In this document: positions 59,974-64,000 of the stretch, in pieces
How positions within the stretch are numbered: the first letter of the stretch is position 1
Layout of the letters: every line of letters starts with the position of its first letter
Source of the DNA: Methanobrevibacter sp. V74
Lineage (GTDB): Archaea; Methanobacteriota; Methanobacteria; Methanobacteriales; Methanobacteriaceae
Length of the DNA: 64,000 nt
Assembly (NCBI RefSeq): GCF_963082495.1
Contig: NZ_CAUJAN010000004.1
Location: 142,001 to 206,000 of the forward strand
Direction: 5' to 3'
Made by a program: the position numbers and the translations under genes
The notes under the pieces: generated by a model
The model's database searches: none
What the model was told of the DNA's origin: nothing
What the model saw: only the letters and a program-made list of their open reading frames with translations

Positions 59974-60568
59974 TTACTTTTTAGCGTAATAATTGCCATT
60001 TTTAACAATCAAATCTGATTTTATAAGATCCTCTAAGTTTTTTTGGATTTTTTCATCAAAATTCTTTGATTTAAATCTAATTAATGATTTTTTAATATCT
60101 TCAAAGCTGGAGTTATTAACCTCATCATAAACACTTTGCTGGAAAGGTGTTAAGTTAAATATAATATCGTTTAGAGGATTTTTCCTCTCTTTAAATGACC
60201 AAACCTCATCCTGAACTTCAATATTGAATTTGTCTTCTAAAGCAGGGATTTTATCCCTAAGCTCATCTAAATCCGGATGTTGGGCAAGTCCAAGTTTATG
60301 TTTAAATATTTTATTTAAGAATTTCTCGTGCAGTTCATTAAGATTAATATCTTCTTTAGTTTTAAATGAATCTAACACATATATCTTATCACCAATTACC
60401 TCTAGAACTTTATAACTGTTTGTTTCCTCGTCAAACTCGATTTGTTTAAATGCACCTAAATTCCAATGATTATCTAAAAGAAAGTTCCTCACAAATTCGG
60501 CATCTTCAAGAGAGTTATAATATCCAAAGATACAATCCTCACCAGCAATTTGTTTTTTAATAACAAGA
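59974..60568 (-). pseudogene. repeat-domain protein, 3' part of an IS-interrupted gene
   Basis: About 198 codons, open from the IS boundary to the stop at 59974. The native N-terminus is absent: the only in-frame start lies inside the IS terminal repeat (giving MADTLV). Residues near the IS form a domain CIFGYYNSLEDAEFVRNFLL with NHWNLGA, the same pattern (Y-G-x-F/Y, SLxDA, R, W-x-L) as the piece at 62382-62825 on the other side of the IS. The remaining residues are charged, helical and end DLIVKNGNYYAKK. I do not recognise a function; the domain slightly resembles AP2/integrase-type DNA-binding repeats. Confidence 0.6.
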
Positions 60569-62350
60569 GTGTCCGCCAAAAATGATTTTTGAGTGTGGAT
60601 TCTAGTAAATGGTCACATCAAGCTTTAATTGGTGTGTAGTGGATATACTTTCACAAAAATCAACAATATCTTCTTTATTATTTTGTTCTCCTTGAATAAG
60701 ATTATATAATCTTTTTATATTGTATGCTAGTGCATCTAGGTTGAGTCTTTCTCCGGTTTTTACCATTCCGATTACTATTTCTTGTTCTACATGGTATTGT
60801 TCTTTGAATATTCCGAATGGTCCTTCTACACTTGGTCTTTTTTTGAATTCTTCTTTATATTCTTCTTTTTCCATTTTGAAGAACATTGCTCTTTCTAATC
60901 TGCCACCGTTTTCTGTGATGGTTTTATGTGTTTGTTTGTCTGTTAAGCAGGATTTTCTGTGAATGCAGTATTTACATGCAGTATAATTGTTGTAGAGTCT
61001 TTTTATTTTGTCGGGTTTGTCTGGTTCTTCGTTTGGTTGTGTGTGTATTCTTTGTAGAAGTACATTGGTTGTCCTGATGGGCACATAAATAAGTCTAGGT
61101 CGGATATGTAGTAAAAGTGGTCTTTATGGAATTGGTTTGGATTTAATTTGCCTATTTTTTCTTTGGATTGTTTTCTTGTTGGTATTAATCCATCTATTCC
61201 TTTGTTTACAAAGTATGATAGGCTTATTTGATTTAAATATATTGTATCTGCACTCATGTGTTTTGGTACTTTTCCTATGTTGTTTATTGCTTTGTCAGCT
61301 ACTTCTGGTAGTTGGTAATGGTCTGTAGGGTTTTGTGTGACGTTTAATGCGCAGATTAGTTTGGTGTCGTAATCGACTGCAGATTGGATATTATAAGCAA
61401 CCAGGAAGTTTCCTTTTTTGCCTTTCATCATGCGTGCTTCAATATCATTCATTGGTATTTTATCCTGTCCTGTGAATTTGAATTGAGTTCTGATGTCATA
61501 TAATATTTCTAATTTTTCATCATTGGACATTTCCTTGTCATCATTTAGTATTTTTTGAGCTGGTTTATTGAGTTTTTCAAGCTTTTTAAGGTCAACTTCC
61601 AGTCCTTTGTAGAACTGGACCAGCAAATTGGTTTCTTTTTTGCTGATCATATTTTGGTTAGAATTGAATGCTTTTTTGATGGTCCCATCGACTACAACAT
61701 GATTAAATTCAGTGAATCCTTTTTTTACGGCCATTTTTAATGTCATTTGAAGCAATACTTCATAATAACGTCCAAATTCATCACGATACCTTTGAATTGA
61801 ACGTTCAGAGGGTTTAATTCTATCACAAACGAATTTATATATGTCATGGTACTTTGTCATTTCTGCAATGACTCTAGCACTTTCAATATGGTCTATTTTT
61901 GCATAAACAAGTAATTTTAACATGGAACATGGAGGATATGAAGGCCTACCGCCTTTTTTCTTATTCTCTTTAATTCCCAAAATCGGATAAAATTCTTCAA
62001 TAAAATCAACCACAAAACGAGAAATATGATTCTCTGGAACATTAAAATCTATAAGTCCTAATGCCTAATTCAGCCTGATTCTTAATAACTTTCTTACTAA
62101 CCATAAATAACCAACACATAATAACTCATATCTAATATAAAATATGTACATCATAGTATATAAATATTACTATTCTAAAAATGACTAAAATCAAATATAA
62201 ATAAATCATTATAATCCATATTAAAAATTATGAATAATAAATAATTAAAATTAAATTCTAATTAATTTAATGAAAAAAATTAACAAAACAAGAAAATTAT
62301 AACGCAGTTATAAAAAATTCAAAATAAAAAAAATTAGTTTTGGCGGACAC
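60569..62350 (-). mobile_element. IS1182-type insertion sequence, inactivated (1782 bp)
   Basis: Bounded by inverted repeats: GTGTCCGCCAAAA at 60569-60581 and its exact complement at 62338-62350, with similar AT-rich sequence inside. The transposase on the minus strand resembles the IS1182 family and is broken by two frameshifts. No direct duplication is visible at the flanks. The 3'-proximal region 62105-62337 is AT-rich, without genes. It lies between two pieces of a repeat-domain gene. Confidence 0.85.
60602..62104 (-). pseudogene. IS1182-type transposase gene with two frameshifts
   Basis: Read from 62104: MVSKKVIKNQAELGI, a frameshift near 62060, then LIDFNVPENHISRFVVDFIE and on through GGRPSYPPCSMLKLLVYAKI, SERSIQRYRDEFGRYYEV and VVVDGTIKKAFNSNQNMISK (first catalytic Asp), NIQSAVDYDTKLICALNVTQ, STDTIY-type ADTIYLNQISLSYFVNKGID. 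A second frameshift near 61035 (after EYTHNQTK) leads to the C-terminal part with the zinc-binding CKYCIHRKSC and RLERAMFFKMEKEEYKEEFK. The N-terminal piece is 336 codons, the C-terminal 160. Not functional unless both shifts are sequencing errors. Confidence 0.85.
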
Positions 62351-62381: not shown

Positions 62382-62825
62382 TTAAACCATATTTTGAACT
62401 ATTAGGATTTCTTTTATATTTTTTAAGTATCCCATCAATTTTTGTGATGGTTTTCTTTTATATTTTTCAAGGAGATTTATTTTCCCATCAATACTTACAA
62501 CAAAATAAGTATCCTCAAATTTATATAATTGTTTAATTGAGTCTAAATCCCAAGCATTATCTATTAATTCATCTCTAAAGAATCTTGCATCATCTAAACT
62601 TGCAAATTTACCATAATTTTTTGAATTTTTAATAATTGTATATGAACTATTAATCAATCGAATATATTTTTCAGCCATCAATATGACTTTGTTTTTAAAA
62701 ACAGATAAGTTTTGAGATTGAAACTTTAGATAAGTTGTTTTATAAGTTACTTTTTTACCAATTTTAAGTTTAGACATTGTCTTTGATTCTAACCTGTTTT
62801 GAACAACAAATCTTAAATTTAGCAT
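62382..62825 (-). pseudogene. repeat-domain protein, 5' part of the IS-interrupted gene
   Basis: A 147-codon ORF. Its core (YGKFASLDDARFFRDELIDN, then AWDLDSIKQLYKFEDTYFVV) matches the domain left on the other side of the IS. The frame stops at 62384, but the neighbouring frame continues NSSKYGLNITKVFDTFVG up to the IS end, so the original gene probably read on into the 59974-60568 part. An indel here and the IS both break it. Start uncertain: MLNLRF at 62825, MSKLKI or MAEKYI further in. Function unknown. Confidence 0.55.
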
Positions 62826-62887
62826 GAAAACGTTTTAATTTAAAATGTTCTCAAATACATGGAAAAAGGAAAAAATGGTTTTATAAG

Positions 62888-63067
62888 CTATTTTAAATTT
62901 AAAATATCATTTTTAGACAAACCAGTTATTTCAACAATATCTTCAATCGAATAAGCTTTTTTAATCATGTTTTTAGCAACATCCAATTTAATTTCTTGTC
63001 TACCTTCTAACCTACCTTCTTCTCTACCTTTTCGTTCACAGTAACGATCCATTGGATTAAGTAACAT
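62888..63067 (-). CDS. free-standing copy of the Rpn C-terminal domain, candidate RpnS-like antitoxin
   Basis: A 59-residue ORF starting MLLNPMDRYCERKGREEGRL, with ATG at 63067 and GGGAGG ending 8 nt upstream (63081-63076). It equals the last 63 residues of the Rpn-like protein apart from one missing REEG unit and about nine substitutions, mostly conservative (for example V/I, F/L, I/V, G/A). It includes an HTH-like end (IKKAYSIEDIVEITGLSKND). In bacteria, the separately translated C-terminal Rpn fragment (RpnS) neutralises the full nuclease; a duplicated, independently translated copy would act the same way. Function is inference; the ORF, start and duplication are visible. Confidence 0.65.
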   Translation of the reverse strand: MLLNPMDRYCERKGREEGRLEGRQEIKLDVAKNMIKKAYSIEDIVEITGLSKNDILNLK

Positions 63068-63112
63068 ATAAGTTTCCTCCCTATGAAAAAGGAAAAAAAA
63101 TAGTTTTATAAA

Positions 63113-63304
63113 CTATTTTATATTCAAAATATTTTTTTTAGACAACCCAGTTATTTCAACAATATCCTCAATCGAATATCCTTTTTTAATCATGTTTTTG
63201 GCAATGCCAAATTTAACTTCTTGTCTACCTTCTAACCTACCTTCCTCTCTACCTTCTTCTCTACCTTTTCGTTCACAGTAACGATCCATTGGATTAAGTA
63301 ACAT
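63113..63304 (-). CDS. candidate internally initiated small protein within the Rpn-like gene (RpnS-type)
   Basis: In frame with the Rpn-like gene, ATG at 63304 lies 9 nt after GAGGAG (63319-63314), the best internal Shine-Dalgarno in this gene, and would make 63 residues starting MLLNPMDRYCERKGREEGRE. Known bacterial Rpn genes make a short inhibitor (RpnS) from the same position. The duplicated copy at 62888-63067 starts at exactly the matching ATG with its own GGGAGG, which supports this site as a real start. Confidence 0.55.
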   Translation of the reverse strand: MLLNPMDRYCERKGREEGREEGRLEGRQEVKFGIAKNMIKKGYSIEDIVEITGLSKKNILNIK

Positions 63305-64000
63305 ATAACTTTTCTCCTCATATTGTTTTGATTCACTATCATCTAACATATTTGTACTTAAAACATCGAACAAATAAATAATCGCTTTTTTCTCATTAAT
63401 ATCCATTTTAGATTTTTCAGCAATCTTTTCAAAAAGATTACGAGCTTTAATTAAAATATTTAATGGAGATTCTTCATAATCTGTGTAAACAATTACTTGA
63501 AGTGATGCAATATCTTCATCTGTAATTTCCTCACTGTTTTTTAGTTTATTTTCAATATTTTTAAAGATATCTGTTGCTTTGAATTTTTTAAGAGAAATCA
63601 TGTGCATTATATAATTACATCCCTCATTAATCCCAAATTCTATTTTATCATATTTTGCTTTTTTAGTGCACAAAATAAATAAATCAACATATTCATCTAT
63701 AAATATGCGTAAAGTAGACACATACTGATAAAATCTTTTAATATCTTCACCTGTTGGAAGTGTTGACTGACATTCCAATATTAATGATGTCCTCTTCCCA
63801 TCTTTTTCTGCTTCACATACAAAGTCAAGACGGGAAATTGAGGGCCCTAAACTAATATATTCAGACAACAATACTTTTTTGATAGTATATGGAATATTCA
63901 TGAATTTTAATAGACCATTTGCTCGACTATGTAGAATAGCTTTAAAAATATAGTCGTTGAATTGACCATAAGTTTTATTTGAAATATCTATTTTTGAATT
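63113..64000 (-). CDS. Rpn-family PD-(D/E)XK nuclease (5' end beyond window)
   Basis: At least 295 codons, open to the window edge; the ATG at 63901 is probably internal, since KTYGQFNDYIFKAILHSRAN upstream matches the family's N-terminal D-x2-FK motif. The nuclease core shows ISRLDFVCEAEKDG then SLILECQS, the PD-(D/E)XK-like D and E-x-Q. Later parts: RFYQYVSTLRIFIDEYVDLF, a helical middle, EGR repeats (REEGREEGRLEGR) and an HTH-like end. Such proteins (recombination-promoting nuclease/putative transposase) cut DNA and act in phage defence. An internal ATG at 63304 has its own strong ribosome-binding site. Confidence 0.85.
   Translation of the reverse strand, partial: NSKIDISNKTYGQFNDYIFKAILHSRANGLLKFMNIPYTIKKVLLSEYISLGPSISRLDFVCEAEKDGKRTSLILECQSTLPTGEDIKRFYQYVSTLRIFIDEYVDLFILCTKKAKYDKIEFGINEGCNYIMHMISLKKFKATDIFKNIENKLKNSEEITDEDIASLQVIVYTDYEESPLNILIKARNLFEKIAEKSKMDINEKKAIIYLFDVLSTNMLDDSESKQYEEKSYMLLNPMDRYCERKGREEGREEGRLEGRQEVKFGIAKNMIKKGYSIEDIVEITGLSKKNILNIK

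Follow-up and report, generated by a model that had tools for sequence, protein, structure and literature searches.

What is a free-standing antitoxin gene for, when it lies beside a toxin gene that appears to hold an antitoxin of its own? This question is raised by the stretch of DNA analysed here, 64,000 nucleotides of Methanobrevibacter sp. V74 (hereafter the window), near the right edge of which a gene for an Rpn-type nuclease (RpnL) is followed by a small ORF that repeats the nuclease tail. In E. coli the tail of Rpn nucleases is also made by itself, translation from an internal start in rpn giving the small protein RpnS; the same holds for a C. difficile gene that was cloned in E. coli (Zhong et al. 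2023, PMC10327210; all statements attributed to this paper refer to its main text and figure legends). We refer to the free-standing rpnS-like ORF as the solo.

A tandemly duplicated tail cassette

Tandem Repeats Finder reported one array here, consisting of two copies with a period of 225 nt and 86% matches, and its score is far above chance; both copies of the 225-nt unit are also seen as direct repeats. The duplicated unit spans the final 63 codons of the nuclease gene together with the upstream Shine-Dalgarno sequence and the 3’ flank, the full nuclease frame being 322 codons from stop to stop. The solo starts at the ATG at 63067 on the minus strand (Table 1). A preliminary description of this DNA had proposed exactly such a duplication, Shine-Dalgarno and 3’ flank included, and had described the copy as a self-contained ORF of 59 codons with its own GGGAGG and ATG; array and ORF coordinates confirm both points. 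It had also put the divergence at about nine residues and one repeat unit. The unit difference holds, the missing unit being an REEG, and the codon alignment gives 8 residues; at the nucleotide level the copies differ at 14 positions, 6 of the changes being synonymous and 8 non-synonymous. Except for the missing unit, the first 25 codons of the solo are identical in DNA to the nuclease copy. The T-rich tract in the spacer between the two ORFs might terminate the upstream transcript.

Table 1 Features of the rpn locus in the window
Feature	Coordinates	Strand	Evidence
Tandem duplication, two copies	62862..63317		Tandem Repeats Finder, score 668
Free-standing rpnS-like ORF (solo), 59 aa	62888..63067	-	ORF; TIGR01784 profile positions 227-271, E=9.2e-10
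Spacer from nuclease stop to solo ATG, 45 nt, including T-rich tract	63068..63112	-	Sequence
Shine-Dalgarno GGGAGG of the solo	63076..63081	-	Sequence
Putative nested rpnS, last 63 codons of the nuclease gene, internal ATG 63304	63113..63304	-	Same ATG context as the solo
REEG repeat unit, 12 nt, in the nuclease copy, missing from the solo	63239..63250	-	Alignment of the copies
Internal Shine-Dalgarno GAGGAG of the putative nested start	63314..63319	-	Sequence
Rpn-type nuclease (RpnL) gene, 3’ part, going on beyond the window to ~64081 (stop-to-stop)	63113..64000	-	TIGR01784; conserved residues

The neighbouring gene encodes an archaeal Rpn-type nuclease

The nuclease matches the NCBIfam family TIGR01784 over nearly its full length (E=7.9e-13), scoring 48.8 bits where the curated cut-off is 52.1, and no Pfam family is reached at its cut-off. 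Across the 96 Rpn proteins of the genus, the residues aligned with D86 (63826-63824), E103 (63775-63773) and Q105 (63769-63767) are conserved at 99%, 100% and 79%, respectively, and those aligned with Y120 and K179 at 99% and 97%. All five are present in the window protein and, by the conservation of these alignment columns, its PD-(D/E)XK catalytic residues are kept. An AlphaFold2 model built from 14 sequences (mean pLDDT 80.7) predicts an alpha/beta core and helices, with a long helix at residues 238-273 and two short helices. Matches from Foldseek against the PDB were weak, the best having E=1.3e-3 and none reaching E<=0.001; the higher-ranking ones include EndoMS/NucS and McrBC, both PD-(D/E)XK nucleases. 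For the tail two matches were obtained: the RpnA_S chain 7TH0 ranks second (E=0.0045, query residues 21-59), behind an entry named CAP REPEAT that is built of weak repeated matches. The initial assignment as an Rpn-type nuclease with an RpnS-like tail is thus supported by the conserved catalytic residues and the match to 7TH0. Judged by its PD-(D/E)XK residues, its 7TH0-like tail and an internal ribosome site at the equivalent ATG, the window gene is a putative archaeal RpnL/RpnS toxin-antitoxin gene.

That internal site, an ATG with GAGGAG, occupies the position equivalent to the ATG and GGGAGG of the solo. Such sites are over-represented in the genus: 70 of the 93 nuclease genes with a stop codon contain an ATG with a Shine-Dalgarno 5-mer between 110 and 40 codons before the end, where 33.0 +/- 3.7 are expected (maximum 45 in 60 synonymous shuffles). 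In the upstream control, taken from the middle region, 5 are found and 3.9 expected. A strict Shine-Dalgarno 5-mer precedes 20 of the internal starts and 16 of the solo starts in 32 toxin-solo pairs. These counts suggest that a nested RpnS start exists in these archaea too. Repeat alignments and the predicted structure place a variable number of four-residue repeats after the internal start, followed by a helical tail. With an apparent nested antitoxin start inside the nuclease gene itself, a first antitoxin need not come from the solo.

Free-standing tails recur in Methanobrevibacter

A genus search of 67 genomes found a match in 57 of them, among the matches listed. From these, 111 loci were surveyed (about 15 weak listed matches were left out), in which 96 nuclease genes were counted along with 47 tail ORFs that stand alone. 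A solo lies within 2.5 kb of 30 of the 96 nuclease genes, about a third, in the loci among the matches listed, and five loci carry two consecutive solos downstream (G002, G013:C55, G041:C12, G061 and G065). Three loci with a solo and no toxin gene (G005:C7, G064:C23 and G047:C146) stand outside this count. The pair of nuclease and small ORF, which the preliminary description suggested looking for in other Methanobrevibacter genomes, is therefore recurrent. A frame-independent search detected tail homology on the same strand downstream of 35 of the 96 nuclease genes (one of these being a 9-residue match), upstream of 1 and on the opposite strand of 0. In other genera of the same family, a tail-like ORF lies beside a longer Rpn ORF at 3 of 18 scanned loci (L157, L158 and L160).

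For 26 of the 47 solos the nearest relative is their own toxin, a count that fits frequent, independent duplication at individual loci. Most appear to be of recent, local origin, as they would if they were by-products, i.e. if local 3’ duplications of rpn arose frequently, their repeats slipped fast and the small ORFs lingered without function. The survey also turned up three Rpn proteins in which the 7-residue repeat KDEELVA replaces the 4-residue unit (L076, L087 and L102, at G011:C35:151-1221, G015:C34:1667-2608 and G035:C10:25639-26604); compared in pairs, they differ in length by 35, 35 and 0 residues.

Solos seldom match their neighbour in repeat number

The window solo has one REEG unit fewer than its toxin, and this proved to be the rule. 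We aligned 35 toxin-solo pairs of the genus, leaving out one solo upstream of its toxin, and dropped three with a poor start match or an identity below 0.5. In the resulting 32 pairs, repeat number is unequal in 30, and in 28 of these 30 the difference is a multiple of four residues. The toxin is the longer partner in 22 unequal pairs and the solo in 8; the equal pairs are G004:C1:990501 and G018:C17. All 11 pairs that are at least 90% identical outside the gap are among those differing by a multiple of four. One solo of the set, G010:C15, is truncated and aligns over 11 residues; excluding it leaves 29 of 31 pairs unequal. Similarly, in E. coli MG1655 RpnE is without a unit where YpaA, the product of the small gene downstream of rpnE, has one. 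Seventeen E. coli loci with both rpnE and ypaA, hand-picked for differing lengths from evenly spread rows and so not a random sample, gave 10 distinct allele combinations, none of them equal; one combination (L181, 5 versus 0), which escaped the search pattern, was counted by eye.

These differences fall in the element that probably sets specificity in the bacterial system, where RpnC_L is blocked only by RpnC_S of equal repeat number (Fig. 4D of PMC10327210), a rule that rests on one E. coli pair. By this rule the window solo, being unequal in repeat number, should not restrain its present toxin. This weakens the suggestion, made in the preliminary description, of a second inhibitor acting on the same nuclease. 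A second functional antitoxin, i.e. an extra RpnS that keeps the adjacent nuclease in check, would sit well with a solo that is adjacent, on the same strand and intact, that has its own ribosome site and that shares its first 25 codons with the nuclease copy, the missing unit aside; E. coli does produce YpaA (PMC10327210), and two of the 32 genus pairs are equal. Against these points stands the unequal repeat number, both in the window and in 30 of the 32 pairs, viewed in the light of the RpnC result in PMC10327210. We therefore see the second-inhibitor role as possible and do not favour it; on balance it is unlikely. The mismatch also bears on the opposite proposal, an anti-antitoxin that would pair with nested RpnS, titrate it and so free the toxin. 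RpnA_S dimerises through its long first helix (PMC10327210) and the solo has most of that stretch, but unequal repeats should weaken a dimer of solo and RpnS too, and we consider this reading highly improbable.

Does the mismatch reflect selection on solos? Selective avoidance of matched repeats was rejected: repeat number is equal in 8 of 82 toxin-toxin pairs from different genomes, a control in which some pairs were aligned from a shared Met other than the internal start, and in 2 of 31 toxin-solo pairs (identity of at least 0.6 in this comparison). In the bin of at least 90% identity, 2 of 3 toxin-toxin pairs and 0 of 11 toxin-solo pairs are equal, too few to lean on. A shuffle of nine E. 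coli combinations, with L181 excluded, predicted 0.89 matches where none was found (P=0.28). The mismatch between solo and toxin is a matter of hypervariable, fast-changing repeats and no special trait of solos, and that toxin-toxin pairs are equally mismatched is also what the by-product explanation would predict. The nested antitoxin changes with the toxin and the free-standing one does not, hence a solo seldom equals its neighbour in repeat number.

Solos are weakly constrained as a class

The window pair has a Nei-Gojobori dN/dS of 0.29 (Fisher P=0.03), from the 6 synonymous and 8 non-synonymous changes whose comparison the preliminary description had proposed as a check, but in a simulation with AT bias and transition bias so few non-synonymous changes have P=0.17, and the lack of a stop has P=0.46. 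When the changes are polarised, 0 synonymous and 3 non-synonymous fall on the solo branch, with no evidence of constraint there. On these two counts the window pair alone does not demonstrate selection. Of the earlier idea that divergence in frame hints at selection, what survives is a set of weak signs across the genus. In 19 of the 32 pairs, polarised by an outgroup, dN/dS is 0.63 on the solo branch (bootstrap 95% 0.47-0.83, binomial P=0.009) and 0.46 on the toxin branch (P=0.23 for the difference). For G041:C45 and G061:C31 the outgroups may carry the newer toxin tail, which would perhaps put changes on the wrong branch; dropping both gives 0.59 on the solo branch (P=0.018). The pooled pairwise pN/pS of the 32 pairs is 0.56, a value we set aside as evidence because it is roughly what a neutral solo next to a toxin under constraint would produce. 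Broken solos number three or four (G010:C15, G021:C77, G033 and perhaps G016:C54), where about 10 of 32 are expected from substitutions alone (P ~0.002-0.007), the two sets overlapping only in part and decayed copies perhaps escaping detection.

Judged from these substitution patterns, solos as a class are mostly intact and weakly constrained. The low number of broken copies, with the same reservation as to overlap and missed copies, and a dN/dS below 1 on the solo branch both argue against lingering by-products, an explanation to which the pooled pN/pS of 0.56, the P of 0.17 for the window pair and the strict Shine-Dalgarno 5-mer at only 16 of 32 solos lend themselves. We rate it as improbable overall.

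Tails occur both on toxins and as separate genes

One locus, shared by G021:C16, G041:C45 and G061:C31, has nucleases that are 75-82% identical and flanks in common. In G021 tail A is on the toxin, and no solo was detected up to 1500 nt away. In G041 it is the solo that carries A (31/35), the toxin tail being identical to A at 16/31 positions; this solo tail and its own toxin are identical at 17/32. The G061 toxin has a third tail and is followed by two solos, the first A-like (27/35) and the second like its own toxin (32/35). By eye, another four toxins of the subfamily also end in A-like tails, which suggests that tail A is the older one at the shared locus. That two species carry an A-type tail downstream of the toxin at a single shared locus is a further point against by-products. 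Of the E. coli strains examined, the three that lack a solo bear the solo-type tail on their toxin.

The tail module thus occurs both as the tail of a toxin and as a separate gene, so that one recombination between copies would interconvert the two states. Uneven divergence was considered as a trace of gene conversion. In the window all 14 differences are confined to the final 102 nucleotides of a 177-nt alignment (hypergeometric 3e-4), but toxin-toxin controls are uneven as often (15/42, versus 11/31), and the pattern was set aside as evidence.

The locus lies in a defence island

The neighbouring genes on the nuclease side encode a type IV restriction enzyme (mREase_IV, E=1.7e-222) and a NUDIX protein matched by PDC-S07, a PADLOC candidate model, and include DUF2357/PDDEXK_7 ORFs. 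The rpn proteins themselves matched no PADLOC model. The rpn locus therefore lies among defence genes, in a defence island. This island (L004:3770-9471) lies directly beyond the right edge of the window, and its restriction enzyme has a PLD/helicase/DUF3427 architecture. A single Rpn locus was found in the genome at E<=0.001, so there is no other resident toxin found there that needs the solo, and a role as antitoxin of a second resident toxin was rejected.

Downstream of the rpn locus lies an IS1182/DUF772-type transposase ORF (61003-62013, minus strand; IS1182 model E=4e-52, positions 45-392 of 488), which looks incomplete and the remainder of which may be in the overlapping ORF 60602-61084. 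It is flanked by two small proteins without Pfam matches (62382-62825 and 59974-60579, minus strand) that have a 58-residue stretch in common (41% identity, E=9e-9); no further copy of them was found in the same genome.

A model for the free-standing tail

We tentatively prefer to see the solo as a spare, non-cognate tail and antitoxin module. The C-terminal domain of the nuclease would also be made alone from the internal start and would block the nuclease. Tandem duplication of the C-terminal cassette, ribosome site included, would then give a free-standing RpnS. Since solo and neighbour now differ in repeat number, the solo would, by the RpnC rule, leave the present toxin unrestrained. The solo could still neutralise toxin versions with its own repeat number, whether former, future or incoming. 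One recombination event might make the solo the toxin’s own tail, with toxin and nested antitoxin changing together. Here we infer translation, inhibition, the specificity rule in archaea, the recombination step with its direction and mechanism, and the benefit.

A wider, and less likely, proposal is that free-standing rpnS genes in archaea and bacteria are a store of alternative tails and not backup antitoxins. Each would keep a specificity absent from the present toxin, would protect the cell during a switch of repeats or tail, and could be recombined onto the toxin, altering both the toxin and its nested antitoxin in one step.

The results presented here extend the gene-within-gene Rpn system, with free-standing copies of its antitoxin, to an archaeal genus, in about a third of the nuclease genes examined. 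They put in doubt the obvious function of such copies, YpaA included, which in the pairs compared here seldom match their neighbour in the repeats that set specificity. And they suggest a reason for nesting: only a nested antitoxin would stay matched to a fast-changing toxin.

Comparison with known Rpn systems

The preliminary description knew of no earlier account of a nuclease with a second, independent inhibitor gene, above all in an archaeon. For bacteria the arrangement is already described: free-standing RpnS genes lie downstream of rpnE (ypaA, or rpnES) and, in some strains, of rpnC (rpnCS) in E. coli (PMC10327210). Tagging in the same paper shows that E. coli produces the YpaA protein; the paper also notes losses of rpnS through deletion or fusion and reports rpn genes in two archaeal phyla. 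We found no mention of the mismatch in repeat number between solo and neighbour in its main text and figure legends, and no description of a free-standing RpnS copy in archaea in the open-access literature, where most subscription journals are missing. In E. coli K-12, ypaA (L136:3817-4002; NC_000913.3 2357816-2358001) is annotated as a pseudogene with its frame open, the tagging in PMC10327210 showing a protein; rpnC of MG1655 has no annotated solo.

Compared with single entries, the window protein resembles RpnA_S (7TH0) in the sequence of its C-terminal domain and in a predicted long helix followed by two short helices, but the 7TH0 chain has 49 residues, and the tail of the window toxin has three REEG/RLEG units near the start of this domain. 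It matches TIGR01784 (Rpn family nuclease / putative transposase) nearly end to end, but its score below the cut-off marks a divergent archaeal branch. A further likeness is to rpnE-ypaA. In both, a free-standing RpnS lies downstream of the nuclease gene and begins at the start equivalent to the internal one, the window solo being a separate ORF downstream of rpnL in this ypaA-type layout, and in both (MG1655 for E. coli) it differs from the nuclease tail by one 4-residue unit. The window differs from rpnE-ypaA and rpnC-rpnCS in its archaeal host, and Methanobrevibacter differs from them in the several loci, named above, with two tandem solos. The window arrangement is an archaeal example of an arrangement known from E. 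coli.
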